From Pholiota molesta (taxonomy: Eukaryota; Basidiomycota; Agaricomycetes; Agaricales; Strophariaceae): DNA of 64,000 bases. This document shows positions 20,540 through 60,902 of this stretch, piece by piece. Each line of letters opens with the position of its first letter. The stretch's first letter is position 1. The notes under the pieces are model-generated. The model saw only the letters and a program-made list of their open reading frames with translations. It searched no databases and was not told the DNA's origin. The stretch lies in assembly GCA_014925825.1 (NCBI GenBank), contig JACGCK010000058.1, positions 207,995 through 271,994 of the forward strand. The letters are read 5' to 3'. The position numbers were made by a program, and so were the translations under genes.

Positions 20540-21611
20540 ATTTTGGGTCACGGGACTGCCACCTTCCTTATATAGACTTTGGCCTCCAAAAACCCAAATG
20601 GGGACAGTGGCTTACATAAACATAAATTGCTGTGTCCGCGCACATTACAATTGTTTATTTGTCTGTGTTCTGCAGAGTTTCGTGTCACAAGACTGCCACC
20701 TTCCTTATATAGATTTTGGCATCCAAAATCCAAATGGGGACAGTGGCTTACATAAACATAAATTGTTGTGTACGCCGCATGTTACAATTAATTATTTCTT
20801 TGTTCCAACTCATTTTGTTACCTTGACTTGCCAATGCACATTCTTTTCCTGTATTTTAGTCACCTTGTTTTTGGGTTAGGTGACTTTGTTGTTCAATTCC
20901 TTGGTCCATATGTATTGTGGACATCCACAACCTAAATAGAGAAAGTGGATTACATAATCTGGAAATTGTACCGTACGCCGTATGGTGCAATTACCCATGC
21001 CCGTGTATCTGTTTCTTTGGGTATGTTGCATGTGACTTTGGTCCATCTTACACTTTTTTTTTGGACATTTTTTTTGATGTGGAACTTCTGCGTTTTTTGG
21101 GGTCCAGGGACGTTGTGCTTGGCATTGCTGTCCTTATTGGGCTGTGGACGTCCACAACCTAAAAGGGAAAGTGCATTACATAAACAAAAATTGTACTGTC
21201 CGCCGTATGCTACAATCACTGATGTCATTCATACAGGCATGTTGGGGTGACAGTGATCCATTCTCATGCTGATGAGCCAGGGAGGATGTGCACACTTTTT
21301 TTTTGTTAGCTTTGCCGCAAGAATCCTGAAGGTTTGGTTTGGTAAGTAGTAGGCGTTGATTTTAAGAAGTTCTGTTTGTGCTGTGGAGTCGACTCCCTTC
21401 ATGTAAAATCTGCCCTACATCAACCAAAAATTGTACTGTACACTGTATGCTACAATTACTTTTGTAATGTCTATATTGTGTTGGTTGCCAGCTTTAGGGA
21501 ATGTTGTGCTGTTCTCTGTACGTTTATTGATACAATGCCTCTGCTCTATTTCGACTTGGTGCTTGGTGGTTTTCCCCATTTGGGTTTTTGGCGTCCACAA
21601 CCTAAATGGAG
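20540..21611. repeat. Imperfect repeat array: five 29-bp palindromes (A) with palindrome B half-sites
   Basis: Units of 140-240 bp each combine a B-type segment (CCAAAACCTAAATGGGGA-like, near 20571, 20722, 20924, 21148, 21590), a GTGGCTTACATAAACAT-like spacer, and palindrome A at 20625-20652 (28 bp), 20761-20789, 20964-20992, 21189-21217 and 21429-21457. A near-complete B palindrome lies at 21574-21611. No gene is visible here. The array ends about 60 bp before the TATA box of the recombinase-helicase gene. Confidence 0.8.
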
Positions 21612-21674
21612 AAATTTGTTTGTTTTAAACTGCAAATGTGCTGCTGACATCGCATAAGTCCCTGCCTTCTGATG

Positions 21675-21682
21675 TATAAATA
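21675..21682 (+). promoter_or_regulatory. TATA box of the recombinase-helicase gene
   Basis: TATAAATA, 74 bp upstream of the ATG at 21756, followed by a pyrimidine-rich CT/C-tract leader typical of fungal core promoters. Confidence 0.6.
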
Positions 21683-21755
21683 CTGGATGCCTTTTTACTC
21701 AACTCTCTGTTCACCCTTTTCCTCCCCCCCCCCTCCCCCCAACCTTTTCCTCGTT

Positions 21756-24700
21756 ATGGCTTCCTCAACATTTCCCACCTTTACCACCGTCTTGGACGAT
21801 ATAACATACAAAGTGGACTCCGATGACCAAGGTTATTATCGTTGTCCCTGCCGCAAACATCAGAATTCGCAACCTCCCCAAATGTACGATTGGGAAGGTA
21901 TCAATGCCCATTTCACAAGCTGGCTCAATATATCTGTGCAGAAGGTAACTTCAGCACTTTTGCTGGCTTTTCTTTATCTCATATTCGTTTGTTCATACAG
22001 CCCTACAACGTTCGGGTACATCTCCTTCTTTCTGTCACTCAGGGTGGACACTTATCTTGCCACTCTAGATCCCATTTGAGATTCTTTCTGATCACCTCAT
22101 TGACACCGCCTTGCTCAAGCGCTTGGGGTTGGTTGTGAATCGGACTGCCAAGGTGATGATTTGCACCCACTGCCGCATAGTATTGGCCAAGACGTACTGT
22201 GGTTTCCATATGCGCAAACAACACGAGTTGTCCATCAGCTCGTCCGATGCAGTCGAGCTTCTGTCGACCTTCCATCAATTTGCACTCTATGACAAGCTCT
22301 CCTTGGCACCAAATACCGTCGTTCCTGCTATAGAAGGCCTCGAACCGATGCTCGTCTATACTTGCCTGTTGTGCCCAGCCGCATATGCCAAATTGGATTC
22401 TATGCAGAAGCATCATCGCACACACCATCCCAAAGATCCTCGTCCAGAGACATGGCCACAGAGTATGGGGCAGCAACAGAATCGCAGCACCGCAAATTCC
22501 TGGTTTCGTGTGTCTACCATGGAATTTCGCCCCCCCCGCACCCCATCTGCGGAACTCGTGGCCCAAATAGAGAATTCTATGCAGGCGACTCTCCCCATAG
22601 ACATTGGTGCATTGGACGCTCGCAATGTCACTCCATGGCTTAGGGTTACACAATGGCACCTGCACACCAAAGGTTACGCTGCCGCTGATTTGCAGAAAAT
22701 GGTTGCTTATCCTACCGTGGGGGAGCTTCCGCATTTGAAGATGGCCGTGCAAGCGTTTTGGGAATCTGCTTCTCAACTGATCGATGCAACGTCTGTGTTG
22801 GTTTTGCAAAAGTTGAATTCGCCCTACATTGAAAAAACGTATGTGATATTTTATTTTAATTGTAGCGTACGGCGGACAGTGCAATTAATCTTCTTTCTTC
22901 CAGTGGAATCACCAACACTCCCTTCCATCACCTTCAAGATCATGATCGAGGGAGAGATTCCTATATTTCCCCCGTTGTTGGATTAGTGGCCATGCTTCTC
23001 CGTCCCTGGGGCGTGTATCCGCTCCATCTTCCTGTTACAGTTTTGACTGCGAGGGATACGCTCGTCGAAGACCTTCACAATCCTGATTCTGCTACGTGGT
23101 CCCAATCTGTGTTTGGCCTACTCTTTGCGCTCTGGTCCGTCAAGTGGATACCCTTGCCAGATTCTCCTGTCACGGATCCTACCCTCGTTTACTTTATGCT
23201 CTCTTCAATTCAAAAGGATGGCGGGTTTATGGAGCCCAAGCTGATTACCAATATCATTGCACGCTTTCAATACCTGATGCGCCTCGTCTTTCTGCAGGCC
23301 ATGCACGACAACGGGAATATTGAAATGGCAGCAGAGCAGCTTTCGGTCTGGTTCCAAGAAAAGCACGACTCCACCTTCAATTCCCTGCGCTCTCTTCAAC
23401 ACGTTGCGTCTTCCATTTCGTATTCCACGATCAGTCTTCCCAAAATTTGGTGGATTGACCGTGAACACCACCGATCCCTCCTGTACAAAGGCTATCCGAT
23501 TCAGTTCTCCGCATTTCCCGCCATGTTTGCAGCCATTGAGGACGAGATGGTCCACCTATGGCAAGAGGAGCTTCTTTGTGGGCTCCCCCTCAAAGTCCAG
23601 TATGGAAGACTTTATGACGACCTTCAGAATACCAGGCCGGGTTATTCTTTTGTCACTGATGAGCGCAACACGTGTTTTGGCAATCGGATGCAACTCTTGC
23701 AGGCCATCCTCGACACCCCAGATTTGTATAAACGTTTTGTGGCATACAATTCTGGTGGTGTTATTCGGTGGAATGTTATTGCCTTCCGACGATGGTTGGC
23801 CGCCTATGCGTCTTTCCAGCGCCTGCAGCTTATGCTGGTGATGATGGCAACGGGCTCTCCCAGTCGCGCAACAGAAATCACTGCACTCCTCTTAGCCAAT
23901 ACCGCCACCAATCCTATGCGAAATGTTACCGTGTTCGATACATTTGTGACCATCCTTTGCACGTATCAAAAGACGAGCGCCCTTACTGGAACGGACAAAT
24001 GTATCCCCCATGCCTTGAATGGCTTTAGCGCAGACTTGCTTGTTCAAGACCTTGCGATTACCCGTCCTTTTGCTGAAGTCGCCGCTCACCTCAGCTACCC
24101 CGACACCTCTAATGTTATTCAACTCTACCGCACCCATGTCTTTGTCAACCAAAACCGGCTTTTCGATACCGATGATCTCACAGCGGGTCTTCAAGAATTT
24201 ACATTAAAGTATCTGGGCGTCAAGTTGGGTGTTAACGGGTGGCGACATGTCAGTACCGCCTTTCGGCGCAAGATCTGCACGCGCATGGAGGATCTGTACG
24301 AAGAGGATGAAATGGACAACGTGCAAGCCCTCCAAAGTGGGCACAATCGTCAAACGGAGAATAGTGTCTATGCACTTAGCGCTGATTCGGCTATGGGTGC
24401 CCCCGAAGATCTCCTTCCTAGGTTTCTGGATGCCAGCAAGGACTGGCAGCTCGCCTGTCGTCTTGTCCCAGGTGGGCTCGGGCGCTCCTATATTGATTGC
24501 AGAGCATCCTCTTTCCAAGTCCTCCTCGATGCTGGCACCATTGATCTTGTACGTGGCCCTTCCCAAAATAGCCATCAGGATGTGCTTGCTGCCATCCATG
24601 GTCTCCGGGCCCATTTCGACCATGCAATGGCCAAACTCCTGGCGCACTTTCCTCAAACACCTCAAGGTAAGGATTTCTCTGCCTATTGCAATTTTATGCC

Positions 24701-26549
24701 TTATATTGTCGAGTCTCAGTGCCTGTTGCTCCCGAAGTGCCTTTGCCCTCGGCAGACTCAATGGAAGCCAAAGCACTTGGCGTTCTACGTCGGCTGGTGG
24801 GCAATCCAACAGCAGACTGGTCTTGTCCAGAGCAAAAGACGGGTGTTCTGGCCGCCCTTTCCCTGCAAAGGGACGTTATTGCAGTGTTGGCCACGGGATT
24901 AGGCAAGACGATGCTGGCGATCCTTCCTTCCCTTCTCGAGCACCAAAAAATGACCGTGGTGCTTTTGCCACTGCGGTCGTTAATGGCGGATTATGAACAC
25001 AAGCTCACGCGCTTGCAAGTGCCTTTTGAAGTCTTTACTGGCGGTCGTATCCACGGTGAAGCCAATTTACTTTTGGTATCGGCTGATATCTCCAAAGCGG
25101 ACAGTTGGCGCCACGAAGCCGCTATTTTAAACGAACGCAAACCAATTGTGCGCATAGTTTTCGATGAAGCCCATATTCCCTTACTGTCTGCGAACTACCG
25201 ACCTGCTCTCCGCGACATGTTCCTTCTCCATTCCCTTCCTGCTGGTGTCCAGATTATTCTACTATCGGCAACCCTTTCCCACGCATTGGTTCCCACTCTG
25301 ATTCGCGAGTTCGGCCTTTCTGGTTCCCCTCTTGTTCTGCGCACCAACACCAACCGCCCGGAGCTGCAGTATATCTGGCGTGCACCCAGTTCAAGCCAGA
25401 AAATTATCGAACAAGCCGTCAAGATCGCCCAAGATTATCAATGGTCCCATGAACGGGAGCGCGGCCTCGTTTTTGTTCCTTTTTACGACATGGGTCAGCG
25501 CATCGCGACCCAACTGAATTGTGACTTTTACAGTGGCAACGAGAATACTACTAATGAAGAGCGCCATGCCATGTACAATCGCTGGAACACGGGCGCCGCG
25601 CGCGTTATGGTTTGCACCTCTGCATTTGGGACTGGTAACGACTACTCCCATACTCGCTTTGTTGTTCACGCAGGCAGACCCTATGAAATGGTCAACTACA
25701 TTCAAGAGATCTCACGGGCTGGACGGGATAAGGTCCCTTCGATGTGTATCTTGCTCCCGCAGGTCAAAGACGCCCCAGGCGAGTTTCCTACACCAGACTT
25801 TGGCGGCTTTAAGGCTATGCACGAGGCTCTTCAAGCCCCCGACGGATGTGTTCGGTTTAAAATCACCAGCCACACCGATGCGGTTGGCACCGCATGTGCG
25901 GATAACGCAGGCAATCAGTTGTGTAATTTCTGCCAGACGCGGTACGCTGCGTCTATCGACGGTGTGGGGTTTCTGGCTAATATTTTTACTATAGCCAAAA
26001 GCGTGGTAATGACGTTTTCGCAGAGGCGTATAATGCTTCCAAAAGAAGGCGCATTGACTCCGACTCCAAGGAAATAGCCTATGTCACACTGTTTCTGAAG
26101 CATATGGATCAACTCGTTGCGGGGTGCGTGGTTTGCCTGGTGAGCAATGAAGTGGTGGACCGCCATTCCCTTCCGCAGTGCTACCATCTTCGCTGTATGC
26201 ACGCCGATGGAACCAGTGCTTTCTTTGCTTGGCGGAAGAAGATCAAATACCCGCCCTCGATCAAGGCATGCTTTAAGTGCCACGTCCCGCAGGGCCCCAA
26301 TGATAGCCTCCATCCCACCTTCAGTTCCAAAAGAACGCTTGCAAGTATCACGACGTATTGGCGCCACTTGCGTATGCCCTTTACCATACCCAGCCTTACC
26401 GAGAAGCCGCGCAACGTCATTTCAATACGATGTGGGATAGCGCGGAGGCCTTTGTCACGTGGATCAATGGTCCTATCCAAGCAGGCCATTACACCAATCT
26501 CTCTGCCGTCATGATGTGGTTTGCGGGCCTGGAGAAAGGTCTGGCTTAG
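21756..26549 (+). CDS. C2H2 fingers + tyrosine-recombinase-like domain + RecQ-like helicase, about 1,500 aa
   Basis: Five exons chain in phase: 21756-21944, 22069-22838, 22904-24666, 24720-25941 and 25995-26549; the introns are 124, 65, 53 and 53 nt. Exon 2 has two finger units (CTHC..HMRKQH; CLLC..HHRTHH), a DUF3505-like layout. Exon 3 carries tyrosine-recombinase boxes: SPSRATEI (Arg at 23865), a possible Lys in TYQKTS, NGWRHVSTAFRR (Arg, with Asn in place of the usual first His) and SGHNRQTENSVYAL with the candidate nucleophile Tyr at 24369. Exon 4 is a RecQ-like SF2 helicase: ATGLGKT (24890-24910), DEAH (25163-25174), SAT (about 25265) and QEISRAGRD (25702-25729), then a CNFCQTR cysteine motif. 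Exon 5 has further Cys pairs (CVVC, CFKC). A frame change near 26320-26335 joins it to the final VLAPLAYALYHT block, suggesting a 1-bp lesion or error. I know of no named family with this fusion. Confidence 0.7.
22858..22886 (-). repeat. Palindrome A copy inside intron 2 of the recombinase-helicase gene
   Basis: A 29-bp copy, core reading CGGCG on the plus strand, lies within the 65-nt intron 22839-22903. It starts 19 nt after the GTATGT donor and ends 17 nt before the CAG acceptor, occupying nearly half the intron. Confidence 0.85.
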
Positions 26550-26792
26550 TAGATGTCCACGTATTAGACACTCTCTTGCAATGTAGTTGATGTGATCATT
26601 TTTTCTTTGCCATGTCTTTTTGCTCTCTACGTCGGTATGCCAACCTCGTCCATCTGGAGGCCTCCTGAGGAGATAGGCCCCCTATATTCCTTCGCTTGCC
26701 ATAAACTTGAACCGCTCCGTAGCTCCGGCACCCCCACCTATTTAAGTCAATGGCGACGTGCATTTCCAGTTCCATAGCATCCTCTTGACGCC

Positions 26793-27321
26793 ATGCCTTT
26801 CTCCACACGCGCCTCTGTTCGTGACATGTTCATAGAGAAAGTCCGCGATTTTGATCGCGTTTATGGCATCGCTGCAACAGAAGAGTCACTGGAAGCTATT
26901 GATTCACTGGTCGAATATGCGGTACGTGCTTAGGGTTGGTGTGGATACCTTTCTGTATGTTGATCCAGCTATATGTAGTTTCTGCTTGATTTCAAGCCCC
27001 AGGAGCTTGTTGCAGACAGGGACCTTCAATATTGGATAGGTGATCTGATCGGGGCACACTCTGCGGTATATGCTCACCATGCTGAAATCACGGGGCAACC
27101 GATGCAAGACCTCGGCCCTTTCCATGCTGGGTTACAGAAACTGTTGTTCAATGCATCGGATTGGATCTCCCAGACCATAATCGCCTTTGGGGTTCATTCT
27201 TTTTCTTCACTCTTTAGCGTCTATGCTGATGTTCCCTTAGGCAGAAAACTTCTTCGTTCTTGAGGATGAGGAAGAGCCGGGAGTCGATGTTGCTGAGGAA
27301 AAGCATGTCTCCCAGCAGTAA
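26793..27321 (+). CDS. Small hypothetical protein, about 140 aa
   Basis: ATG at 26793 (MPFSTRASVRDMF). Exon 1 ends at 26921 with a GTACGT donor, the acceptor is ATGTAG (26978), and exon 2 continues in phase with FLLDFKPQELVADRD and WIGDLIGAHSAVYAHH. A further GTTCAT..CTTAG intron (about 27198-27239) gives a last exon AENFFVLEDEEEPG ending TAA at 27319-27321; without it the frame ends slightly earlier. It is helical and acidic at the C-terminus. I recognise no family. It lies 240 bp downstream of the recombinase-helicase gene on the same strand, with a TATTTAAG-like box about 50 bp upstream, so it may be a companion gene. Its 3' end is duplicated just downstream. Confidence 0.5.
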
Positions 27322-27592
27322 TTCATCTATTTGCTAGTGCTCACTCGTATTGCATATGTTGGCAAGCTATCCACCGAGCGTATGGTTAATTGCTGTGTCC
27401 GGCGGTCAATACAATTACATTGCCTTTCCAGGGTAGAAACCTTTTCGTTCTTGAGGATGGGGAAGAGCCAGGAGTCAATGTCACTTAGGAAAAGCCTGTC
27501 TCCCAGCAGTAATTCATCTATTCCTAGTGCTCACTCGTATTGCATTTGTTGGGAGGTAGGGTTAATTGCTGTGTCCGGCGGCCAATACAATT
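27238..27592. repeat. Tandem duplication of the 3' end of the small gene, each copy ending in palindrome A
   Basis: Segment 27240-27416 (GAAAACTTCTTCGTTCTTGAGG onward) is repeated at 27432-27592 with about 15 bp lost. Each copy ends with palindrome A in minus orientation: 27388-27416 and 27564-27592. The second copy has an early stop, so only the first is coding. Confidence 0.75.
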
Positions 27593-28471
27593 AAATCGCC
27601 TTTCCAGCACTCCCACGCCGGTGGCTGGGTTTGTTGGCGTCTCAGACAACACTCCCGTGCCACGCGTGCAGTGTGCATGCATGCGTGCACGCACCAGGCG
27701 TATCTTGCACGCTCTTTGCACGCAAGTTCAGAAATACTCACGCACAACTCACGCCGCCGAAGTCGGCATCGCCATGTTCCCACGTAGACACTGAGTACTG
27801 AACGCACATCAAAGCAGTTGTTCTGCATCTTCGCGCGCCGGAATTGCTGGGCACTGTCAGTGGGGCTTAGATGAAGGTGACCACCAGCTCTGGAATCCGT
27901 ATGATGGGATTTCTGAGCACTGGATCCATCGAGACCGAGTTGACAGCGATGGTGAACTGGAGGTGAGTTGAGTTCTATGCCTACTTATCAGATGCTGGAT
28001 GTTTTCTCAAATTAGGAAGGTCCCAATTACAAGAAAATGAAGAGGGCTACTCCGCCTGTCGATTTGCGACCTCGCCCACGACCTCAGCCGAAGACCAAAC
28101 GCACACGTAAAACAGGACAGTCTTGATCTTTTTCAGGTGGACTTGTCGATTTTTATATTCATAGTCTATGTACATGTTCATTACAAGGCGACTATGTGAT
28201 TTTATTTGGTTATAATACAATTTTACAGCCTCCTAAGGCCGTATATCTATTTGATTGGTGCACGCCTACGTGCACGCAACATGTCAATATGTCACGCTCA
28301 GCGCACGCATCTCAGATAACTATGTGCGCACAAACATGCGCGCACCTTGATTAAAGTTGCACGCACACGCCCGAACTGCACGCTCATGGCACGGCAAAAT
28401 ACCTGCGCCCCCTATGCTCGTGCGGGGTTTTAGTGTGTTATCCTATTTACCTATATTTGCACCTTGGTGGG
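27593..28471. other. Non-coding stretch with GCACGC-rich repeats and a gene remnant
   Basis: 27640-27740 and 28255-28390 are rich in CACGC/GCGCAC words. Between them, about 27797-28127 on the plus strand, is an open segment with an in-phase GTGAGT..AAATTAG intron, reading GHCQWGLDEGDHQLW, then a basic, proline-rich tail with KTKRTRKTGQS and a TGA at about 28125. No start codon was found, so it may be the 3' end of a lost gene. Confidence 0.35.
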
Positions 28472-28479
28472 TATAAAAG
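28472..28479 (+). promoter_or_regulatory. TATA box of ParB-like gene A
   Basis: TATAAAAG, 41 bp upstream of the ATG at 28520. Confidence 0.6.
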
Positions 28480-28519
28480 GCGCCTTTCCCCATCGCTGAC
28501 ATTTGCTCCATCCCCAAAA

Positions 28520-29243
28520 ATGTCTCTCAAAGACGTGGTGAATAAGTTTAATCGTCAAGCGGCTGGGCGTCCTGTGAGTGACAGAGAAAGCTGTTTTTTT
28601 TTTTTTTGATGCTAAAGAGGTGTTGTAGTCCCACGTTACACCCTTCAAGCAACCCTATTGCGAAGACGACTTTGCAAAGTTGACGTCTGAAGAGGTCATG
28701 TTGTTGTGCCAGGATATTGACGAATGCCATCTGGGATGGGGCTATCTCAAAATTGGACCCAATAGTGTTGTGGGACCTCCTGGCGTTCATGTGCAACCTT
28801 GGTTTCCCAAAGAATATTCCCTTTCTGCCGTCGACCAGTTTTGGGAGCAAACACTTGGATGTGGTTATTATGTGGACAATACTAGCATTGAACATGCAGT
28901 CGACATTGCTGTTCCCCCAGGGCTTATCAAGCGCGCCAGTCTGGTGCTGGATGCTCAGTCCAAGAACGACTTCAAAATGGTAGAGTACCACTGTCAGTCC
29001 AAAGAACCCCTTATCTTGGTCGATGGTTTTTCCCGCCTTCACGCCGCCCAGTTGTTGCTATTGGATCTGCAACAAAAATTCGGTGAACAGGAAATTGATT
29101 ACATGATTTGGCTTGCACGCTTCTATGATAAAGGTAGTCTTCTATTCCGAGTTGCCCTCCGATGTACTCATAGCCGCCTAGATTCTATCAATAGCCACTC
29201 AAGGGCACACGAAATGAAGTATATCATGGTTTATAAAGTGTAG
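28520..29243 (+). CDS. ParB/DGQHR-like protein, copy A (short, probably 3'-truncated)
   Basis: ATG at 28520 (MSLKDVVNKFNRQ); a GTGAGT donor at about 28573 and TTGTAG acceptor (28629) give exon 2 in phase. Exon 2 contains PLILVDGFSRLHAAQLLLL, which matches the ParB/sulfiredoxin-fold signature (hydrophobic strand, D-G-x-x-R, then Ala-rich helix). It ends at IWLARFYDK immediately before a GT donor. Copies B and C have an exon boundary in the same place (SWLVAFYDL, FWLLRVLHP), so the three are paralogues. Beyond this point copy A only reads through intron-like sequence to a stop at 29243; the long downstream part of the family is missing. ParB-like domains in bacteria bind or cut DNA or hydrolyse CTP; the role in a fungus is unknown. 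It converges on the next gene and overlaps its stop by about 12 bp if read to 29243. Confidence 0.55.
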
Positions 29244-30684
29244 TTGAGATGGTATGCGTTATTAATAGTAAAGTAACGAAGCATGTCGTACAGCGTTTCT
29301 TTGTCTATATCTTGCGTTGATGCCATGTGGCGTAGGACATCCACCATGGATGGAATCACAGAGACGAGATCCTCGCGTTTGGGGTTGATCTATCGTACAC
29401 GTGTGTGAGAATCATAGTAGGAGCGTCGCACGCAGGTAAGATACCTGTGCTAGATATGCTTCTACGTGGCTTCCATAAAAGGAGGCTTCACCCCACCAGG
29501 GCTTGTGGTACTTGGCGAGGATATGGGTGAGGTGGCAGCAATGGAGACAGGGGTTCATGTTCAAGCAATGTGTCAGTGTCCCTTCGTATTTGAGATCCAG
29601 ATGAAGGGCATCGCTCAAAAGAATGTAAAAGCGGGGCACATGCAGAGGCCAACCCTTCAGTCTCGCCATTCCGATCAGATCCAAGCCATCACACTAGTAA
29701 TTGCCGGGGTTGGCTAAATAAAATGCAACAAGTGGTGATTACTTACCAATTCGTTGAGCAGTTGCCGCGCCCAGTCTCGCTGTCGAGGTTGTTGTTGAAT
29801 TGCAGCCAAACCCATACGGGCACGGGACACTAACATGTAGACGAGAAGCTGCGCATCTTCATGGGTGGTCGCTGCAGTTCCAAGTAGTTGAATGGCAGGC
29901 ATGGGTGGGGTGGAGGGATACACTATCGTCGTATTACAATACTATATACCCTTTTCGCGACGCCAAATAATGGCAAATAGGCTAGGCAATACGGGTATTG
30001 GCCATGCCCACTGCTAATTCTTCTATCTGCTCCAGTACGTTCTTGTAATCTGGGGTTGCCTGATTCCTTTCCCCTAGCAGGTCGTGGACGATATCTTCCA
30101 TCTTGTCAAAAAAAGCCGATGGCCGCGGATACTCGGCTTTTGCCACCTGGAAAACCAGGGTGTCAGTTTGGCTTCTATCGTCATCTATCCAGAATGTTAC
30201 CTGTTGGCGATATATACCAAGTGCTGTTTCCACAGACCACGTTTGGTTGCTTCCCAATTTTGCTTGTTGCCTGGAGGCACTCCACCACTGATCATAGTAG
30301 TGTTCCAGAACGCGACTCTGATCGTCTTCGGTCGTGGTAAGGTCAATGGATGTGAGGTCCATCGGCGACCTTTCGTTCTCAGCGACGTAGAATGCCAAGA
30401 ATCCATCTACAAGCAGGTGAGGAATAGTGACAGGCCAGGTACGCAAGTGACAAATCGCAATGATCCTTGTGGTGATGTTCTAAAACAATGTCAGCTCGTT
30501 GTCCATCTCCTCTCTCACAGTGCTGTCTTACCATATCCTTCATCAACCGATACATGAAGAGAGCAGATGTATAGCCATCTAAACCTATGCTCTGTTGCCG
30601 ATAGGTCAATGCTGCGCGGAGTCGCGATGCAAAGAGGAAGAGGAGGTCTTGTGCATCGCTGTGGTTTTTGAGATCAAACTCCAT
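29232..30684 (-). CDS. Multi-exon hypothetical protein
   Basis: ATG at 30684-30682 (MEFDLKNHSDAQDL), 61 bp downstream of a minus-strand TATA box. Exons run through LRTWPVTIPHLLVDGFLAFY, FWIDDDRSQTDTLVF, a QLLVYMLVSRARMGL block and a cysteine/histidine segment (NPCLHCCHLTHILAKYH). The last exon reads VIPSMVDVLRHMASTQD and ends TAA at 29234-29232. Introns are short. I recognise no family; the Cys/His segment near 29530-29590 could bind metal. Exon order and spacing support a real gene of about 400 aa, though splice sites between 29.7 and 30.0 kb are uncertain. It is tandem to the chromodomain gene and convergent with ParB-like copy A. Confidence 0.5.
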
Positions 30685-30744
30685 TGATTGCAAGAACGGC
30701 GCAGGGGGAGGGAGAGCAAGGATGGATGTGGGCTATGTACGCTG

Positions 30745-30752
30745 TATTTATA
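30745..30752 (-). promoter_or_regulatory. Minus-strand TATA box overlapping the upstream stop codon
   Basis: TATAAATA on the minus strand, about 61 bp before the ATG at 30684. It overlaps the TAA stop (30748-30750) of the chromodomain gene, showing very compact packing. Confidence 0.55.
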
Positions 30753-32098: not shown

Positions 32099-32146
32099 CT
32101 CTCTTCAACGACATATATTTGCTTGTATTTGCACCTTTCCAATATT

Positions 32147-50893: not shown

Positions 50894-50931
50894 GTTGAAG
50901 TGAAATGGCGGCCGGATCTGTATGTCTTGCG

Positions 50932-51563
50932 CTAGAGAAAATACTGAGCATCAACATACTCATCGTCAACTTCCTCGATGTAGGCTCGTTGATGGTGCGA
51001 GTGCTGATGGTGAGACGGCTCTTCGTCATGTTGTACAGGTCGAGATGGGCCTGGTACGGGTCCAGTTGCATTGACGTTCCGCGGATCGTTAGGTTTGGTG
51101 AGCTGTACCGAGATTGTCGGGTTGTAGTTGCGGTCGCCGTCCTTCCAGAGCATAATTTTCATATGGCCGGTCCTTGAATAATCGATGCGCGCAGCAAACC
51201 ACTGGATCCACGGCTGTCCTAAAATACAATCTTGTGAGTCCATATCATCCGGGTAACAAAGAAATGATGATCGAATCTGTGCCCGCCGATCGAAATCGGT
51301 ACGTCGCGGCATACTCCTCGTAATCCTACAGGCCCCCCGTTGACACCCTTCAGAGACCAGCGCGTTCCTTCGTAGTCGAGAGGAAGGTTTGTTTGCGAGA
51401 GTAGACGCTCTGGAAAGATGTTGAGTTCAGAACCACAATCTACCATGAACCTGATTGATATCCCTGCGAGTTCGGCGTTGAAAATACCCGTCGTCATCGC
51501 ATATTTCTTCGTGGGTCGAAAGCTAACAGCATTCGAATACCTAAGCATAAACGAATCAAGCAT
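50932..51563 (-). CDS. Gypsy aspartic protease, in two frames
   Basis: The retropepsin active site appears as RFMVDCGSELNIF (D-C-G in place of D-S/T-G) in the frame ending at 51219. The C-terminal part, CILGQPWIQW, lies in a different frame from 51312 to 50932. The frames meet near 51270-51290, so one base is missing or a programmed shift exists. It lies between gag and pol as expected. Confidence 0.7.
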
Positions 51564-51607
51564 AGAGGGATCATTGAGTTCATCGAATTGGAGAGAACTC
51601 GCCGAGT

Positions 51608-53356
51608 TTACGCGTGCACCTGCGCTAATCTTCGATAATTCTTCTTCGGCTTGGCCGTGTAAAGATCATACTCGCCGTATTTCGTGAGATATTCACGTCG
51701 CGTCTTCGTGGCGTCGGCCATCCGTTTCTGGAGTCCGGGCGAGATTCCTAAAATATCACGCAATGTCAATGTTACCTGTGTTTGCAAGATCAAATCTTGG
51801 ATATCCTGCATTGAGATCTTCTCCTGGACGTCAGATGTGTAGTGGTATTGAGGTGTCTTGGTCTTCGAATCGTCCTTCATCTCGATGTCCTTCTGGTTTC
51901 GTGGAAGCGACTCTTTCCAACCTTCGCGAGTGTTGATTGGTGGCGGTGCGGGTCCTGATGCGGTTGGCGCGCGCGTCTCGGTGGGGACTTGTCGAGATGC
52001 TGGAGGCGCCGGCGCGGGTGCTGATGGCTGGCGAACCGCTGACGCGGGAGGCGCCGTTGGTGTTGCGGGTCGCTCAGGTTGCTTACGCGCTGGTGGACGA
52101 CAAGTCGGATCGGTCCTAGCAGACGTATCTTTGCCAGTGCGTGTAACAGGATACGAATCAGAAAAGTAAAACTCATCTTGATTTGACGCAATCGCGTACA
52201 CATCGCCGCATATGGCTGGGTAATCACCCATCATGAGAGTTGCTGGGGACGCATTCGCGGTTATCGTGTGGGGTGGTGTTTCGTGTCGCGGAAAGTCATT
52301 TCGATGTTCTCGTAAAAATTGCGCAACACCTCCAGGTGTGAAAGGAATTTGAGGGAGGTCGGATCCATCCATGAGCGTATAACGCGCACGCGCTGCGTCA
52401 TACTTGATGAGCGCTTCCATGATAAGTTTCGCCGTCTCGGGGCAGAATCGCGGGTGTAATTTATGTGTTCCGGACAACCCACAAATGAAACAAGTTTTGT
52501 CAGCAGAGTTCATGTTAGATGGGCGAGACATAGTGCCAGTACTCATCGCAACCTTGAACATTTCTTGCATCTGGGCCTGATTAAGTGAAAGCTGCTGGAG
52601 CTGTTGTGCGAGAAGATCAATATCGTTCTTGGCAGACACATTTTTGGACTTAGCGGGTTCGACGACGCTCGACAATGGAAGGAGAGCCGGCTTGATCGAT
52701 TTCACGGAAGTTGGCGTGTCGTCGTCCGAATCTTCTGCATCCGACTCGACGTTATAGGACTCGATGCTCGATGGATTGAACTGCCGGCAAATGATTTCAA
52801 TGACGGTCTTGATTTCTGGGGGCGCGTTCGTCGAGAGGTTTGCTGGGGGAAGACGGGAAGTGACAAAGGCCCTAGTACGACGTGGGAGTCCCGCAAAGAA
52901 CTTGAGTTTCATCTCGCTGTCATCGATAAGCTTCTTAGACTTCAGTTGCGCGGCAATCGTGAGATATCCTCTGTGGTATTCATCAACATCAGTTCTATTA
53001 ACAAACTCTTTACCCTTGGCGTGTTCCTTGACAAAGAGGCGCAGAATTTCCAAAGTCGCCTTGACTGGTTCGTCGTTGGATCCGTATAAGTCGATTAAGA
53101 GTTGCTTGGCTTTTTCCCAGTCGTTCCCTTCCACTTCATCGCAGAATCTAATAACCTGTTTGACTTGATCAGTACAATATTGAACGATGTATTTCGGGAG
53201 ATCAGAATTGGGTAACCCCGCGGCATTCCCATGGCGTTCGAGAATAGAAATGAAATCGTTAACGTATTTGCCGTCGAAAAGCGGCGCGCTCAAAGTGCGC
53301 GGAATGGGCATAGGCTTAAGCTGTGTGAACAGCTGTGGTTGTGCCGGACTCGCCAT
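51608..53356 (-). CDS. gag: Gypsy Gag, 582 aa
   Basis: ATG at 53356 (MASPAQPQLFTQLKP). A helical capsid-like region (DFISILERHGNAAGLP, WEKAKQLLIDLYG, MKLKFFAGLPRRTRAF) is followed by a zinc-knuckle-like CFICGLSGTHKLHPRFC. A Pro/Ala-rich linker and an acidic/basic C-terminus end at 51608. Length and order fit Ty3/Gypsy Gag. It forms the particle that packages element RNA. Confidence 0.85.
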   Translation of the reverse strand: MASPAQPQLFTQLKPMPIPRTLSAPLFDGKYVNDFISILERHGNAAGLPNSDLPKYIVQYCTDQVKQVIRFCDEVEGNDWEKAKQLLIDLYGSNDEPVKATLEILRLFVKEHAKGKEFVNRTDVDEYHRGYLTIAAQLKSKKLIDDSEMKLKFFAGLPRRTRAFVTSRLPPANLSTNAPPEIKTVIEIICRQFNPSSIESYNVESDAEDSDDDTPTSVKSIKPALLPLSSVVEPAKSKNVSAKNDIDLLAQQLQQLSLNQAQMQEMFKVAMSTGTMSRPSNMNSADKTCFICGLSGTHKLHPRFCPETAKLIMEALIKYDAARARYTLMDGSDLPQIPFTPGGVAQFLREHRNDFPRHETPPHTITANASPATLMMGDYPAICGDVYAIASNQDEFYFSDSYPVTRTGKDTSARTDPTCRPPARKQPERPATPTAPPASAVRQPSAPAPAPPASRQVPTETRAPTASGPAPPPINTREGWKESLPRNQKDIEMKDDSKTKTPQYHYTSDVQEKISMQDIQDLILQTQVTLTLRDILGISPGLQKRMADATKTRREYLTKYGEYDLYTAKPKKNYRRLAQVHA

Positions 53357-53487
53357 ATCGATGTTCGAAAATAAATGGAATGGGAGCTCGGAAAACGTCG
53401 AAGACAGATTGAAATTGACAGAAAAAGGAGAAAAACTTAGCGGTGGTGTTTTCGACGGAAAACCTTAAGTCCAGTCTCGATAGCTAC

Positions 53488-54543
53488 TGTGGAAGAGTTG
53501 ACGTCTTCTTGGAAGAAAGGACCGAGGTCGTCGAAGACGGATGAATAGACTGGAGGATGGCACAAGCGAGTGCCTATGTGTAGATAGAGGGAGTTAGTGG
53601 TCATGCTATATAAATCAGTGCTCAGCTCGTTTTACTCGGGTTAGGCTCGCGCTCGGTCTCGCAGTGTTCAGAATTGAGTGGGGGTAGATTGACCAAAGAG
53701 ACAGAAATTTTACAAACGAAGTATATACGAGATTCCCTGGCGCACGCGTACTCTTGCGTCGCCAGGTCCGTGAAATCAGGAAAAACCAATAAGCTACTCG
53801 ACGCGTGTATCTAGAGTGCCCGTTTTCAAATAAAGATAAGGACCTAGGCCACGCGGAACGATATTGTCGGCCGTACACAGGATAGGAGGAGCAGTTGGTG
53901 TGATGATGCGGGCGCGAGAGGAGACACATCCTTGCCAAAGGGATGTGCCTTCCAACACGGGTGACCAGCCATGTTCGCTGCTCGACGCATATACGGGCGC
54001 ATCCTCCAGGTTCTGTGCACGACGTATCGTCTCGCCCTGCGCGGCTTTGGCTATGTGGAAGAAACAAAACGAAACGCGGAAGTGATCGAAATTATTGATA
54101 GATAAAAATGGAAAAACATATCTTGGAATTTGAAAAGCAAAACGTCGGGTAAAGGTCGTCCGACACACCCTATGCCCTGTTCCCATCTCCGTCGTTCTTG
54201 TAGGGTTACGGTCGACTGTTCGTTCGTCGAGCGCGACGCAGTGTTCTGTTGACGATGTCGAGCTTGCGCGGGCGCCTAAGTTGCCGTCAGTGTGCCGAGT
54301 ACGTTCCCGCGCTATATTTGAGGTCCTAAGGCATCGCAAAAGGAAGTGAGAGTACGCGAATTTGATAATAGATAGTCCATGTGATAGGAAGTAAAACGAT
54401 TGGGGAAGCGGGTAAAGGGTATGTACGAGGGGGCAGAGAGATCTTATCGATCGTTGAGCATGGGCTCGCGCGGCTTGATCGGCATCACGTGGGAAGTTGG
54501 ACTTTGCGCCGCGTCGACGAGCGCGCTATCCATCTCCTCCACA
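53488..54543 (-). repeat. 5' LTR of the Gypsy element
   Basis: 1056 bp, same termini as the 3' LTR. On the minus strand it precedes gag by about 130 bp. No tRNA primer-binding site starting TGG directly abuts the LTR; the nearest TGGACTTAAGG lies about 16 bp inside. Confidence 0.9.
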
Positions 54544-54589
54544 CTAGATACCGACCACTGTGCCCATCTGGGCACGGGTAGCGGGATCT

Positions 54590-54731
54590 CAGAAAAACGT
54601 GGCTTTCTCGATCACCAACGCTTCAGCTGGCTCTGCGATCGAAATAACCACGCGTACGATCAAATCCACGTGGCATTTCCGATCACAGAGCCAGGTGAAG
54701 CGTTGGTGATCGAGAAAGCCACGTTTTTCTG
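54590..54731. repeat. 142-bp foldback element with about 50-bp arms
   Basis: The left arm, beginning CAGAAAAACGTGGCTTTC at 54590, and the right arm, ending GAAAGCCACGTTTTTCTG at 54731, are reverse complements with about one mismatch. The loop is about 40 bp and contains a second ACGCGTACG-like palindrome. No coding capacity; a foldback/MITE-like sequence. Confidence 0.85.
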
Positions 54732-54758
54732 GCAGATATGGGTATTCGACAGGTCATG

Positions 54759-54870
54759 GATTGCAGCGTCCGCCGTACAGTACAATCAAATATGACAGCG
54801 TTCTGTATGTGTTGTAGTTGTGCCAATTAGCACGCACGAGTGATTGTAACGTACGCCGTACAGTACAATT
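54759..54870 (+). repeat. Two palindrome A copies 83 bp apart
   Basis: 54759-54787 and 54842-54870, both in plus orientation (core CGCCG), 28 bp after the foldback element. Confidence 0.85.
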
Positions 54871-55200
54871 GAATTCGAGTCACTCACTGCACGCGCTGCT
54901 CAGTGTGGAACGAATCATTTTTAACTGGCAGTCTGATTAGCGCCCTTGTGTATTACTTTGTGTTTGCGGATTTAGGGTTCGTCGCTTTCATACTTTCTTG
55001 TATAGTCTCAAGCTGTTATCCATTTTGGTATCCGAGGGTTTAGGGTTTGTTCGAACGGTGAAGAATCAAAGCAGTATTACCGATGGAGCCAGCAAAGACG
55101 TTGCAAGTATCTGCTATAGCATCGGTCTCTGCAATGCGTAATATATATATTTGTAAGACATATACCTACCCATTGTGTATCGACCATCCCTTAGCCGTTA
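54871..55200. other. Non-coding stretch
   Basis: No gene seen. It contains repeated TTTAGGGTT words (near 54972, 55028), which resemble telomere-like repeats but are isolated. Confidence 0.4.
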
Positions 55201-55661
55201 TGGGTTTGGCTGTTATGTGCTTTAGATGATTCCTTTGGAGTCGCGCGAGCGGCTCCTTGTCTTTTTCTCCAAAATTATGGTACGTGCTTGGAAGTTTCAG
55301 CGACGGCCCATTAATTGTAGCCTACGGCGGACGATACAATTGAATACGTACGGTTCATGGTGGGTTTGGCTGTTATGTGCTTTAGATGATTCCTCTGGAG
55401 CCGCGTGAGCGGCTCCTTGTCTTTTTCTCCAAAATTATGGTACGTGCTTGGAAGTTTCAGCGACGTCCCCTTAATTGTAGCCTACGGCGGACGATACAAT
55501 TGAATACGTACGGTTCATGGTGGGTTTGGCTGTTATGTGCTTTAGATGATTCCTCTGGAGCCGCGCGAGCGGCTCCTTGTCTTGTTCTCCAAAATTATGG
55601 TACGTGCTTGGAAGTTTCAGCGACGTCCCCTTAATTGTAGCCTACGGCGGACGATACAATT
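55201..55661. repeat. 160-bp tandem array, three units, each with two palindromes
   Basis: Units start at 55201, 55361 and 55521 (TGGGTTTGGCTGTTATGTGC). Each contains a 20-bp hairpin (GGAGCCGCGTGAGCGGCTCC-type, near 55236, 55396, 55556) and ends with palindrome A in minus orientation (55313-55341, 55473-55501, 55633-55661). A fourth, diverged unit lies at 57390-57582. Confidence 0.88.
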
Positions 55662-55823
55662 AAATTACGAGTCTATGTATATAGACTCGTCTTTATATCA
55701 GCGGAGTGGGCCAAAATTCTGGCAGCTGTTACGCTAAACGCGCCGGCCCGCCGGACCATTTCGGACCGTCACGTGGCTCGTTCGCTCAGAACTTGCTCAA
55801 TGCTCTGTGACAAGTTAGAACAG
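55662..55823. other. Short hairpin and flank
   Basis: ACGAGTCTATG..ATAGACTCGT forms a hairpin near 55667-55690. The left 8-bp target duplication TAGAACAG ends at 55823. Confidence 0.5.
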
Positions 55824-57023
55824 TATGGGCGTTATAGTGTGCAAAAATTGTTTTGAAGTAAAAGACGCACACGTACTAGTTTTCAAATAAAGTGACACAT
55901 GTATCTAACACCAACATCTTAAACTACACAGGCTCAGATGTACTTGAGAAAATGACACAGGTGTTTAACCAGCAAGTGAGAAATCGCACAGGTCCAATAA
56001 TACTTTAGAAAATGACACAGGTGATCAACACACAATTTGAATTTCGCTTCAGTGCCGAGCGCGTCCTTTTGGCGCCCGCTCGCCCGCCCGCCGCCTGCAT
56101 GCCAAAACGCACCCGCACCACTTCTCCGCGCTCCCTGGCCTCATGCGCCGTGCATGCGCCTAGCGGAGCCGCACGCCGCCAGCGCGTTTGAACCGCGCCA
56201 GGTCCTCGGAGAGCGTGTTCCGCTTCGCGAGGTTCTCGTCTGCATTCGGCTCGGCCTGTGCTTGGGCTCAAGGAGCTCCATGCCGTCGTCGCCAAGCGTC
56301 ATCGACCGCGCAAGCGGGCACGGTTCGCTGGCGCTGCTTGCGGAGGTGGCGCGCTCGATGCTGCTGCCGCGGGTGACGTCACGGCGCGGGGTCAGCATCC
56401 AGTACTCAGTCCTCATTCGGCGCTGGACTGGCAGCGCTCTTTGCCTCCGCGCCAACAGCATCCTCCCACCTCACCCCAGCCCCAAGGGACGACTCGCTCT
56501 TCGTCCTCTCGCGCAGACTGCGCCGATCATCCGCCGCCATCACGGAAACTGACGGCCACATCGCCTGCGAGCGCCGGGGAACGCCGCCGGGCGCATAGTG
56601 GCCTTGTTCGCACCCGCGCGTGCTTCCTCCGCCTTCGAAGTGGACGATGCGGCCGACGAGGACGGCGAAGAAGACAGCGGCGGCGCCTCGAGCCCGTTTC
56701 ATTGTCATGCCTTTGCCAACAGATATGTTATTTAGGTAAATACCACCTATATACGTTTTAAGTCTCACCGGAGACCTGTGTAGCAAAATATTCATATCTT
56801 CATACCTGTGTCTTTTTTAAAAACTAGTTCTAGAGGGTGTTTACCTAAGGTACCTGTGTCGAATAAAATAGTGTTACTTTTCACCTGTGTCATTTTTTTG
56901 ACTAGGTTAGAACGTGTGCAATTTGTGGTATTTAGCAGTACAAAGGTGTGTCATTTTTTGATAAATTTACCGATGTGTGTGTCTTTTACTTAAAAAAACA
57001 ATTTTTGCACAGTATAACGCCCA
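55824..57023. mobile_element. Non-autonomous TIR DNA transposon, about 1.2 kb
   Basis: Inverted ends: GGGCGTTATAGTGTGCAAAA.. on the left and its near-complement on the right (..TTTTGCACAGTATAACGCCC) extend about 45 bp. TAGAACAG is directly repeated at 55816-55823 and 57024-57031 (8-bp target duplication, as for hAT- or KDZ-like elements). Subterminal GACACAGGTG / CACCTGTGTC words recur in inverted orientation on the two sides. The centre (56040-56700) is very GC-rich with open frames on both strands, possibly a captured host fragment. No transposase is recognisable. Confidence 0.8.
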
Positions 57024-57031
57024 TAGAACAG

Positions 57032-57389
57032 CTCAGAGTTGGCTCAGTGTCGCCACCCACCAGCACCCACCACCCAACCACCACCCTCCCACTCAAACGA
57101 CGTTCGGTCGCGTCCTTTTACCTGCCACCCATCGCCGCGGCGCATGCAGGCGCTTCCTCGTCCACACTACTCAACAGTGGCCAACCAGCACCTGCCCTGC
57201 TCATCATGTATCTTAAGCTGTTCCAGTGCACATAGAGGCTCTATCAATATGATTTTAGTTTTTTATTACAATATTTCAGGTGTTCTGATTTACATGACTC
57301 TCGCAAACACATTCTCACAAGTTAAGCACATAAAAAGATTGGACCAGTACATGCCATGCGTAGCAATGGCCTTCAATACAAGTACGTAC
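57032..57389. other. Flank of the TIR element, no gene
   Basis: CACC-rich followed by AT-rich sequence with only short open frames. Confidence 0.4.
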
Positions 57390-57582
57390 ATGATGGGTTT
57401 GGCTGTTATGTGCTTTAGATGATTACTCTGGAGCCGCGTGAGCGGCTCCTTGATTTTTCTTCTTCAAAGTTATGGTACGTGCTTGGATGTTTTTGTGAGC
57501 GCCTATTGATTTTCGCCCAACTGCATATGAGGAGCACTACTGACGGCCTCATTTATTGTAACGTATGGCGGATGGTACAATT
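57390..57582. repeat. Fourth, diverged 160-bp unit with palindrome A
   Basis: ATGGGTTTGGCTGTTATGTGC and the GGAGCCGCGTGAGCGGCTCC hairpin (57431-57450) match the 55.2-55.66 kb units. It ends with palindrome A, minus orientation, at 57554-57582 (first base T). Confidence 0.8.
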
Positions 57583-59052
57583 AAATACATACCATCAGGT
57601 ATCTCCTTCCAATGCTGTCTGTATTATTTCCTGGCCACTCTCTCTAGGTGCGCATCTACTCACCTGTAGCAGGCCTTTCTCTTTCTTTGTGCAAAGTTGT
57701 GTACTTTTCCATGTCTACTTGCCAACGAGAGCCATCAGCTGATCGCAAGATAATATTGCAGCAATTCACACCTCGCCCATAGATATGCATTGAAACAAAT
57801 ATATGTCCTGGGGGCCACCCAATGACCACCAACCCTGCACAGCGGCAAGGACATACCCAACAACTAGAGTAATGCCCATGTATTACTGACAAAAAGAAGC
57901 TAGTTTTACTAATAATAGCCTGCCCAGGAAGGCGAAGCCAATCCATAGTGGAAGCAAGTCCCGAGATCTCATTCCGTTGCTCGGAAGTCTACCAGGCACG
58001 ATCACAAAGCACATGCATTTGGCTTCGCCGCCAGGGTATTGGGTTGAAGTTGCGGTGCCTTCATTCGGGAGAGGGTTAAGCATTAAGAATATCTATCCGG
58101 CTCCTTAGGCTTCAGTTACCATCAATAGTGGCTTGTAACCTTTTATTTTTATTATTGGCCACAGCCGATTAGATCTAGTCATATGTTCTAGATCCTAATG
58201 AGTGTCCGTTCCGTGAAATAGTTACGCGCGCGCTTATAGGTACGTATCGACTGTCAGTGTTCAATGGTTTCCACGTTTGCAGTTGAACGCCCACTACCGC
58301 TGGAAAAGACTTCGAACTTTACTATTATCTCCAGGCGTTTCAAATGTACAATATTGGTATAGCCATCCAGCACCGACAGATCTTCGGGCCCCGCGGGATA
58401 ATCCCCTGGACGTTATACGGTTGCGTTATTGCCTTTCTTTTGCATGTTCTATTATGCACACGAGGCTCACACCGCGCTTAGATTTGCGACGTTAGATATC
58501 CTTTTCTGAATGAATTTGTTTAGTATTCCGAGTTTGTCCGTGCTTCTAAAGCTTGTTTTCAGACATAGTAACGGTATCTCAGCGCCTCGCTCATGCTCAA
58601 GCACTCTCTAACCCTATACAATACGGGTATCAATCCTCTCGTTTTTGTATGATCGTTGCTCTGCTGTACGAGGCCAGGTAAGTCCCGTCCTGGCTAGCTG
58701 TTCGATTCTGTTCTACGGCCGTGTTGAGGGAATTTCTATTTTTAGCGTACTTCTTCGTCTTCTTCACACCTTGTTTCCAGCTTCTTTAACTCGCTATGAC
58801 TCGTAGAAGCCCGGATCCGGGGAAATTACAATATGTGTCTCAAGGAGATCACCTCCCTTTAGCTTTCGATATACCAAATGAGAACGATTAACTGCAAGCC
58901 TCGATGTTTGGCATCGCTACTGTCATTGAAGTTCAGTAGTCATCCATGGAAGTGATCGCCCAATTTCCTGTGTATTTAAGAGCGTGAGGGCTTACTTCAT
59001 TATTTCTTTCTTTTTTCCTTTTCTTTCGCTGCTCTCTAATCGCCCTCTACTC
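57583..59052. other. Intergenic, no supportable gene
   Basis: Only short frames. A TATTTAAG box near 58973-58980 precedes the next candidate gene. Confidence 0.4.
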
Positions 59053-60148
59053 TGATGTCTCATACCGTGAACCTTCAGACTGTCTACGCCGCCCCGCTTC
59101 GAAGCGTTCTGAGGAAGGCCGTCGCCGGTTTCAACGATCAGTCCCCCAAAAACGCGACGCCCTTCATGCGCTGAACATAGTTCCCCCCGTCTTGGTAAGT
59201 GTCCTTTATCGATACGTCAGCATCTATCAAATCTGATTACCATTCAGTCCGCCTGGGTGATTTCCAATCCTTGCTCAATGTACTACTGCGAACAAGTGGC
59301 ACGCTTCTGCTATTCGATGTCTCGACTGTTGGATCAACACCCGGAGATTCGCAAGGTCCACGAGAAGGCCCTTGGTATTTGGAGCATCTTACCCGCAGCG
59401 TAGTGCGTATTGTCCTGTCGTTTTTTTCCTTGTTACTGATTTTGTATATACTATAGACCACCGCGCCTCTTTCTGGTGCAACGACGATTTCTTTCCCCTC
59501 AATGCGCCTGCTCCGCGACTTCGGGAGACCAACGTCTTCTGGTTCCTGCATGAGCAGTCATCGCCTTCCTCGGCTCCCGTTGTCAGAAGCCGTTCATCAT
59601 CCACTTTGTTCCGGCGGAGGGCTTTACAACCACCGACCCCGCTCAGGTGAGTGTATCGTTGTCCGTCGGTTCTCTTTCTAATTGTCCCAGTTATGGTCCG
59701 CAACGCCCAAGGCATATACATCGACGAGCACAAAGGGCTCTACATTCCCCAAAAACCTTCTCTGCCGCGCACGCCATCGACGAGTGTAGACGCGCCCAGC
59801 CTTTCAGAGATGGCCAACTCGATGGCATCCCTGGTCCCAGTTCGACGTTGCGCTGGTCATGTGCGCAACCAGATCGATTCCAAGCCTTGCCATGGGCTCA
59901 CATCATCCGCCGAGACCAGTTTTTACGCATCGTCCGATTCTGAGGACAAGTATGGAATGGTCAAGGTGGAAAGCGACGACGAAAAGTGGGAAATCAAGCA
60001 AGAGAAGCGGGTCGCATGGATGAGTGAAGGTTGCGCCTGTAGTTGGAATTTTCGTGACGCGCACACTTGGCCTTCGAACATTTTTTTTATTTTACACGTT
60101 GTTAGAATGTTGCATCCTGCAGCTAACTGCTTATTAGCAGTTAGTTTA
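59053..60148 (+). CDS. Possible multi-exon hypothetical gene or remnant
   Basis: TATTTAAG at about 58973 and an ATG at 59053 (MSHTVNLQTVYAAPL) begin it. Exon-like segments follow: SAWVISNPCSMYYCEQVARF (after CATTCAG, about 59249), ATTISFPSMRLLRDF or the overlapping HRASFWCNDDFFPLN (after CTATAG, about 59457), and VRNAQGIYIDEHKGLYIPQK (about 59693) running to YGMVKVESDDEKWEIKQEKR. Splice donors GTAAGT and GTGAGT are present. The first exon frame hits a stop before its donor, so phase is not resolved. I recognise no family. The coding-like composition and splice signals argue for a real or recently decayed gene. Confidence 0.35.
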
Positions 60149-60429
60149 TAATATTATGTTTTGTTCTTGGTCTTTTTGGAATCAACCTAAGTAGCGTGAT
60201 TCAGGCTTAGGGTTCGACCACACCTTTGGCAGCGGCTCCCATTGTTGAAACCAGGACAAGTGATCTTTGGCATCTAGGCGGTGGCTATACAGCTAATAGT
60301 TAGTACTGCCATCTTTTTGTTACTCGAGCTCAGAACATGAATAGTACGTCCTATTGCATCTTGCAAATAATTTCCTTCAACCCCATCCTGCCTCCCTCTC
60401 TGCAACATGCCGTCGCACCAAGCCTTCTT

Positions 60430-60452
60430 CAAAAAAAAAAAAAAAAAAAAAA
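60430..60452. repeat. Poly-A run, about 23 A
   Basis: A long uninterrupted A run. It could be the tail of a retro-inserted sequence on the plus strand, but no matching target duplication was identified. Confidence 0.5.
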
Positions 60453-60873
60453 ATTGAGAATCACCGAAGCGAATTACGGTCACCATAGCTTGCTCGCTAT
60501 CGCACGCCGCAAGAGCTCCGCCTGCGACGACATTACAGACTTGGAGATCAGTTTTTGTTTTCTGCTTCGCTTTAGGGTCTTTTCTTTCTTCCTTTATAGG
60601 GGGTTTCCTTTTCTTGTTCGGGTTTTATCTTTTCATATATAGGCGAAAGACAGTATGACGCATGTGTCTCGCTTTCGGTTACATTGAACATACATGATTG
60701 CAACCACGGTCTCTTCATGTGCACCCCCATCCCGCATGCAGCCCAATTGGGAAGTGGAATCTTCAAAACCAGTGACTTTCCACCTCGATCCCGAGCTCAG
60801 CTCCGTTACTGGGACCTCGGCTGCGCACGATGCTCATACTGATGGCAGCTCGCTCGCTCCAACATCGTGGATT

Positions 60874-60902
60874 AATTGCACCGTCCGCCGGACAGTGCAA
60901 TT
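60874..60902 (+). repeat. Isolated palindrome A copy, the most symmetric one
   Basis: 29 bp with arms AATTGCACCGT and ACAGTGCAATT around CCGCCGG. Nearly all arm positions pair. It is the rightmost copy in the window. Confidence 0.85.

Follow-up and report, generated by a model that had tools for sequence, protein, structure and literature searches.

Dispersed 29-bp palindromes linked to a giant element stacked at chromosome ends in Pholiota molesta

The window described here is a stretch of 64,000 nucleotides from the basidiomycete Pholiota molesta (assembly GCA_014925825.1, contig JACGCK010000058.1; C533:207995-271994 in our short form), which carries a family of 22 dispersed palindromes. 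Positions without a contig name are window positions, and all genome-wide counts concern this one genome (65.58 Mb in 625 contigs). The palindromes are linked to a giant element of about 41 kb, here called element A, and not to the family of its first gene, which joins an OrsD zinc-finger domain, a probable tyrosine recombinase and a helicase. We give an even chance to the reading that they are two-fold symmetric recognition sites of a dimeric DNA-binding protein, most likely one encoded by the element itself.

An original prediction, made from the letters of the window, had listed 22 palindromes, and every copy is present where it was placed, 21 of them 29 bp and the first 28 bp long. They lie, with no strand assigned, at 20625..20652 (the 28-bp version), 20761..20789, 20964..20992, 21189..21217, 21429..21457 (altered core, CACTG), 22858..22886, 27388..27416, 27564..27592 (its unit is duplicated again in C479 and, judging by site positions, in C580), 31477..31505, 31583..31611, 31846..31874, 36089..36117 (the lowest score of the family), 39612..39640, 40239..40267, 40600..40628, 54759..54787, 54842..54870, 55313..55341, 55473..55501 and 55633..55661 (these three in 160-bp direct repeats), 57554..57582 (altered core, TGGCG) and 60874..60902 (the most symmetric of the family). 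The ends ATTG and CAAT are found in all 22. Among the 21 copies of 29 bp, 19 have the core CGSCG, the exceptions being 21429 and 57554. As the original prediction stated, no copy occurs in 1-20 kb or inside the inserted LTR-type (long terminal repeat) element. With a weight matrix, the 21 copies of 29 bp score 31.9-43.5 bits, the next best position in the window reaches 4.9, and the maximum in 20 simulated windows (first-order Markov) is 9.8 bits; the matrix was trained on the scored sites themselves, but the gap to background is nevertheless wide. Beyond the window, further palindromes are seen at C363:19260 (29 bp) and, as a 30-bp version within the right-end repeats, near C363:23357. The copy at 20625 is 29 bp long in C90, C505 and both copies on C598.

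It had also been proposed that two 11-bp inverted arms flank an asymmetric 7-bp core and that arm positions vary in a compensating way, and neither proposal holds. The symmetry continues through the core and takes in both the centre CGSCG and the M/K positions beside it, giving an architecture of 14 + 1 + 14 bp, that is, two 14-bp half-sites around one base, and the non-symmetric spacer of lox, FRT or dif sites is lacking. Positions 6-12 pair in Watson-Crick fashion no more often than after random re-pairing, whether one takes 23 sites, including two taken from another copy or from outside the window (80/161 pairs against a null mean of 85.6, p 0.86), 20 distinct sites (68/140 against 74.2, p 0.89), or 12 sites with one per cluster (45/84 against 45.9, p 0.66). 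These statistics are for Watson-Crick pairs; G-T pairs were counted only. Because the arms show no such covariation, they behave as independent half-sites. The information content is 17.5 bits for a half-site and about 36 bits for a full site. A strict half-site search of the window gave 27 matches, every one of them within a full site, and no lone half-site. The sites at 39612, 40239 and 40600 are identical or differ at 2 of 29 bases. Stretches of 51 bases that contain them match at only 69% and 80% (ungapped); the sequence of these sites is kept though their surroundings have diverged.

The same data bear on the idea that the palindromes act as RNA or single-strand hairpins, such as terminators or origins. 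They are near-palindromes with some G-T pairs and several are located after stop codons. We nevertheless set this idea aside as very improbable, because the arms do not covary and 20351-64000 holds no Rfam match at the gathering score.

A search of the genome with ATTG-N7-CGSCG-N7-CAAT returned 70 matches, compared with 2 when the pattern was read backwards and 2 places for a control pattern with the wrong spacing. All but three (67/70) are on the eight contigs that carry element A copies: C533 (19), C363 (10), C479 (10), C598 (9), C580 (7), C505 (5), C90 (4) and C411 (3), where C580 was assigned as an element A contig from its matches to the sites, the first gene and a ParB-like gene. The remaining three, one each on C35, C500 and C612, are unlike the rest and look like chance. 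Allowing up to 3 mismatches gives 170 strand matches against 6 for the control; among the 100 of these 170 that were listed, 99 are in element A and one, on C533, is chance-like. Uniform genome-wide scatter, the outcome that the original prediction named as counting against it, is thus not what is found. A viral relative of the palindrome was considered and rejected, as the viral contigs of IMG/VR gave no match.

The prediction had further tied the palindromes to the recombinase-helicase gene, and this stands only in part. The sites do belong to the element that carries the gene. However, a second and related element, element B, has the same gene layout (its own OrsD gene, a helicase and a recombinase-like protein 25% identical to that of element A over the aligned part) and gave no match to the 29-bp palindrome, either with the weight matrix in the window or in the genome pattern search. 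The notion that the sites are a property of the whole OrsD-recombinase-helicase family is therefore rejected in this genome. A separate palindrome scan of the element B regions also returned nothing, at a threshold too strict to be informative. In element B, about 2 kb of iterated short motifs, unlike the palindromes of element A, separate the terminus from the first gene.

Confinement to element A also bears on whether the palindromes are tiny mobile sequences, similar to MITEs (miniature inverted-repeat transposable elements) or introners, which multiplied within the element. One copy makes up nearly half of a 65-bp intron, two copies are in 52-bp stretches with GT at the start and CAG at the end, and several have TTAA-like flanks. 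Against this, and despite 65 Mb of other DNA in the same nucleus, none is found outside the element besides the three chance-like matches; there are hardly any decayed copies among the matches listed, no consistent target duplication, and no filled and empty pair was seen. We hold such an origin to be distinctly improbable.

Where the sites lie relative to genes can be assessed in 20351-45311, to which the classification was restricted; seven further sites in 54544-64000, where few genes are predicted, were left out. Twelve of the 15 sites in this part are outside predicted exons, in a gene model that misses at least one small gene near 26793-27321, read by eye. Of the others, one (22858) is in an intron of the first gene (22839-22903, 65 bp), one (39612) overlaps a predicted stop codon by two bases, and one (36089) is within a predicted exon. 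A second palindrome, motif 2, has the core CCANAACCTAAATGG, set in GGACGTCC, with arms CCATTTAGGTT and AACCTAAATGG. It has 17 genome matches, of which 15 are in element A copies and 2 elsewhere, the control giving 2. It accompanies 29-bp palindromes in a forward-strand array upstream of the first gene (20587..21612), where motif 2 is found at 20587, 20723, 20925, 21152 and 21595. The first four of these are each followed by a palindrome, forming modules with spacings of 37, 38, 38 and 39 bp. At 31371..31941, motif-2 palindromes (31393, 31536, 31642, 31906 and 31924, plus left arms) are interleaved with 29-bp palindromes, no strand being assigned.

What we observe directly is independent half-sites, strict pairing, near-exclusive confinement to element A, modules of fixed spacing with motif 2 and mostly non-coding positions. 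These features fit regulation by a protein that the element encodes and that binds as a dimer. If each half-site is read by one subunit, no covariation between the arms is expected, and none was observed. Such a protein would come from element A, and its binding would control expression or copying of the element, most clearly at the promoter of the OrsD-recombinase-helicase gene; the scattered single sites might spread that control along the element. Several points weigh against this interpretation and should be kept in mind. A simple promoter role needs no sites in an intron, at a stop codon or in a predicted exon. The element copies are nearly identical, so that selection on the sites cannot be measured between them, and the gene models come from a simple predictor and reading by eye. 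Finally, the site clusters are spaced rather evenly (coefficient of variation 0.26 against 0.53 by chance, p 0.01, post hoc), a hint that they may serve a structural function.

Only the inner end of element A, at 20351, is exact; from there the element runs outward to a TTAGGG telomere. The copy in the window occupies 20351..64000 on the forward strand, from the exact inner end to the contig end, and its sequence continues in C363 to the telomere. Copies on C533, C411, C90, C505, C479 and C598 (two copies) are more than 99% alike from 20351 on and different before it. Of these seven left ends, one begins at 20352 and the other six at 20351. In two contigs element A breaks off into telomere repeats: the C411 copy is cut at window 21712 and followed by TTAGGG-type repeats, and the C363 copy ends at base 25022, with TTAGGG-type repeats from C363:25023. 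As C479 ends at the equivalent of 35918 and C363 starts at that of 35919, the two may represent a single copy of about 41 kb. The outer end is ragged and telomere-capped, and C505 extends beyond the point where C363 meets the telomere. More than three tandem 2.0-kb right-end repeats of element A, carrying the 30-bp version of the palindrome, make up C392:1-6507. There the repeats are cut, and C392:6507-10000 is unrelated DNA containing satellite-like repeats, which may be a further terminal element.

The partial copies could be aligned over about 57 kb. They differ by a 9.2-kb LTR-type insertion in the window copy (45312-54543, with a 4-bp duplication CTAG), which is absent from C363, by a 385-404-bp tandem duplication and by outer truncations; no site-to-site inversion or deletion was seen in this alignment. 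The site at 36089 is apparently lost in C363, but the start of that contig is rich in single-base gaps, and we took the loss for sequencing error and drew no inference from it.

These comparisons are central to whether the palindromes are lox- or dif-like recombination sites at which the tyrosine recombinase of the element would resolve, invert or exchange copies, as the original prediction had suggested. Lox, FRT and dif sites are about 28-30 bp long with inverted arms, and the palindromes are similar in length, in their inverted arms and in the recombinase-like gene, beside a helicase, on the same element. Spacer variants could explain why sites of 28, 29 and 30 bp exist, the start of the tandem duplication in C479 is only 9 bp away from a site, and the cut in C392 is about 42 bp from a 30-bp site. 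The palindromes differ from such sites in being symmetric through the centre, with no spacer distinct from the symmetry, in having more than 20 copies and in leaving no traces of recombination. Partial copies are collinear despite sites in both orientations, and no mapped breakpoint or crossover falls inside a site, though with few copies this absence is not proof. One of six breakpoints measured is 9 bp from a site and the others are at least 255 bp away (element end, 274; telomere addition in C411, 255; cut in C598, 322; duplication edges, 9 and 347 bp). Attachment takes place at the element terminus, 274 bp from the nearest site, and element B gave no site match. Recombination sites are therefore unsupported; we judge them unlikely, and less likely than regulatory binding sites.

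How element A is attached can be read from four joins for which the uncut sequence is known, and in all four (4/4) the uncut sequence and the start of the element have bases in common: CCT in C411, CCT at the inner and CT at the outer join of C598, and CCT in C505. Two of the cuts are in the same subtelomeric sequence at different points (equivalent to window 8066 and 8230), and the other two are inside other copies of element A itself. Element A stacks head-to-tail at chromosome ends, together with element B. Moving outward, one finds in the window element B (start at 6031, recognisable as far as 9220) followed by A; in C598, B (2 kb), A (7.6 kb) and again A to the contig end; and in C411, B (from 264417), a second B start (~297793), A (1.4 kb) and the telomere, with 280-297 kb left out. 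We take this order to mean that elements attach one after another to chromosome ends that are broken or eroded.

The inner terminus (20351..20366, forward strand) reads CCTAATAATCTTATCC and opens with the reversed telomere unit CCTAA. It is a near-match to the longest terminus of element B, CTAATAATCTATCC at C411:264417, where element A has CTAATAATCTTATCC. Element B was located from 6031 in the window, from 264417 in C411 and near 19812 in C334; the other B copies seen join at a later CT (CTATCC). A pattern covering the termini of both elements has 9 matches in the genome, namely 7 of element A, 1 of element B and 1 chance match. The last, on C230, was discarded, since by eye it is in an ordinary gene and has nothing else in common with the element.

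Terminus and spacing also bear on a role as parS-like partition or anchoring sites, which would serve copying and segregation or hold the element at chromosome ends; such an element might also pass through a linear stage outside the chromosomes. The sites extend over the whole element in rather evenly spaced clusters, and its inner terminus begins with a reversed telomere unit. A small forward-strand gene at 28520..29243 has, by eye, a ParB-like motif (LVDGFSRLHAAQ), and all three of its genome matches (3/3) are on element A copies. Another gene, predicted at 32326..39613 on the forward strand with 12 exons and about 2200 codons, has a weak DndB/DGQHR-like part (Pfam DndB, E 4.1e-6, below the cut-off; NCBIfam DGQHR, E 0.013). 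However, the ParB-like gene has no Pfam, NCBIfam or PDB match, and the assembly has no free left end, 7/7 left ends being joined to other DNA. A partition role is accordingly improbable in our estimation.

Genes of element A were modelled with a simple predictor of our own plus reading by eye. For the first gene (21756..26549, forward strand), the exons read by eye are 21756-21944, 22001-22015, 22069-22838, 22904-24666 and 24720-~25961, with a C-terminal part to ~26549; the predictor offers an alternative with a start at 21687 and a different first intron. Its Pfam matches are OrsD (PF12013), DEAD and Helicase_C. Between OrsD and the helicase, the translation has R-x-T-E, K, R and GH, with a Y nine residues beyond the H, all kept in the element B protein, in an order and spacing that resemble those of tyrosine recombinases. 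Neither Pfam, PHROG nor PDB gave a match for this part, NCBIfam gave none of relevance, and an AlphaFold2 model built from two sequences has a pLDDT (predicted local distance difference test) of 33. Judged by its translation, the gene is probably an OrsD, tyrosine recombinase and helicase fusion of the telomere-linked-helicase type, which agrees with its earlier naming as a recombinase-helicase gene. The helicase is putatively of the RecQ class, as read by eye, the Pfam matches being to general helicase domains. As with telomere-linked helicases, the gene is present in many copies and in DNA that abuts telomere repeats.

Known systems offer partial parallels. The report on Agaricus bisporus var. 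burnettii (PMC7473861) describes subtelomeric RecQ helicases, mentions no domain beyond the helicase core and leaves their role open. For Ustilago maydis, the paper on UTASa and UTASb (PMC10532341) describes telomere-linked helicases, with an OrsD domain reported in UTASb. These loci share with element A a helicase gene beside telomeres and several identical and truncated copies. They are unlike it in that the element A helicase forms a fusion with OrsD and tyrosine-recombinase-like parts and comes first in a 41-kb element, which has an exact end and dispersed palindromes of its own. In literature searches of open-licence PMC papers, no title or abstract opening listed combines a telomere-linked helicase with either a tyrosine recombinase or dispersed palindromes.

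Rotifer Terminons (PMC6431247) reach up to 40 kb and carry a reverse transcriptase and hammerhead ribozymes. Element A resembles them in its giant size, head-to-tail stacking at telomeres, fixed attached end, truncated outer ends and reversed telomere bases at the attached end. No Pfam match to a Penelope-type reverse transcriptase was found in the element open reading frames (ORFs) scanned, which left out some short ORFs and the last 6 kb on C363, and no Rfam match to the hammerhead motif in 20351-64000. Starship giant transposons have a recombinase-like gene (the DUF3435 captain) first, near one end and facing inward, followed by large cargo. The first gene of element A likewise faces inward from the left end at 20351, a similarity that rests on the recombinase reading, and element A too has large cargo. 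Unlike a Starship, element A has one exact end only and is seen only stacked toward chromosome or contig ends, and Pfam gave no DUF3435 match for the recombinase-like part.

The telomere-linked helicase gene here comes first in an exact-ended element that seems to cap truncated chromosome ends one after another, and the related element B has the same gene layout and terminus, which yields a testable hypothesis: that the helicase-recombinase is mobile-element machinery. Tentatively, and with some doubt, we propose that telomere-linked helicases may be the integrase-helicases of DNA-based giant transposons, a DNA counterpart of Terminons that would attach only to broken or eroded chromosome ends, joining by the exact terminus at CT or CCT. 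Family A would mark its whole length with a dimer-binding palindrome, which its own protein would read to control, copy or hold the element. With the palindromes, binding assays and searches for relatives have a short DNA target that is specific to the element.

Some minor features may be recorded. Sequence before the start of element A on C479 (C479:1-1528) reads by eye like a SET-domain gene. Two predicted genes, at 44131-44946 and at 61618-62584 (reverse strand), have no family match; they may resemble dioxygenases. The two are related and have in common the stretch YAPPEI(L/M)EHL...NVAF.SNQLN.

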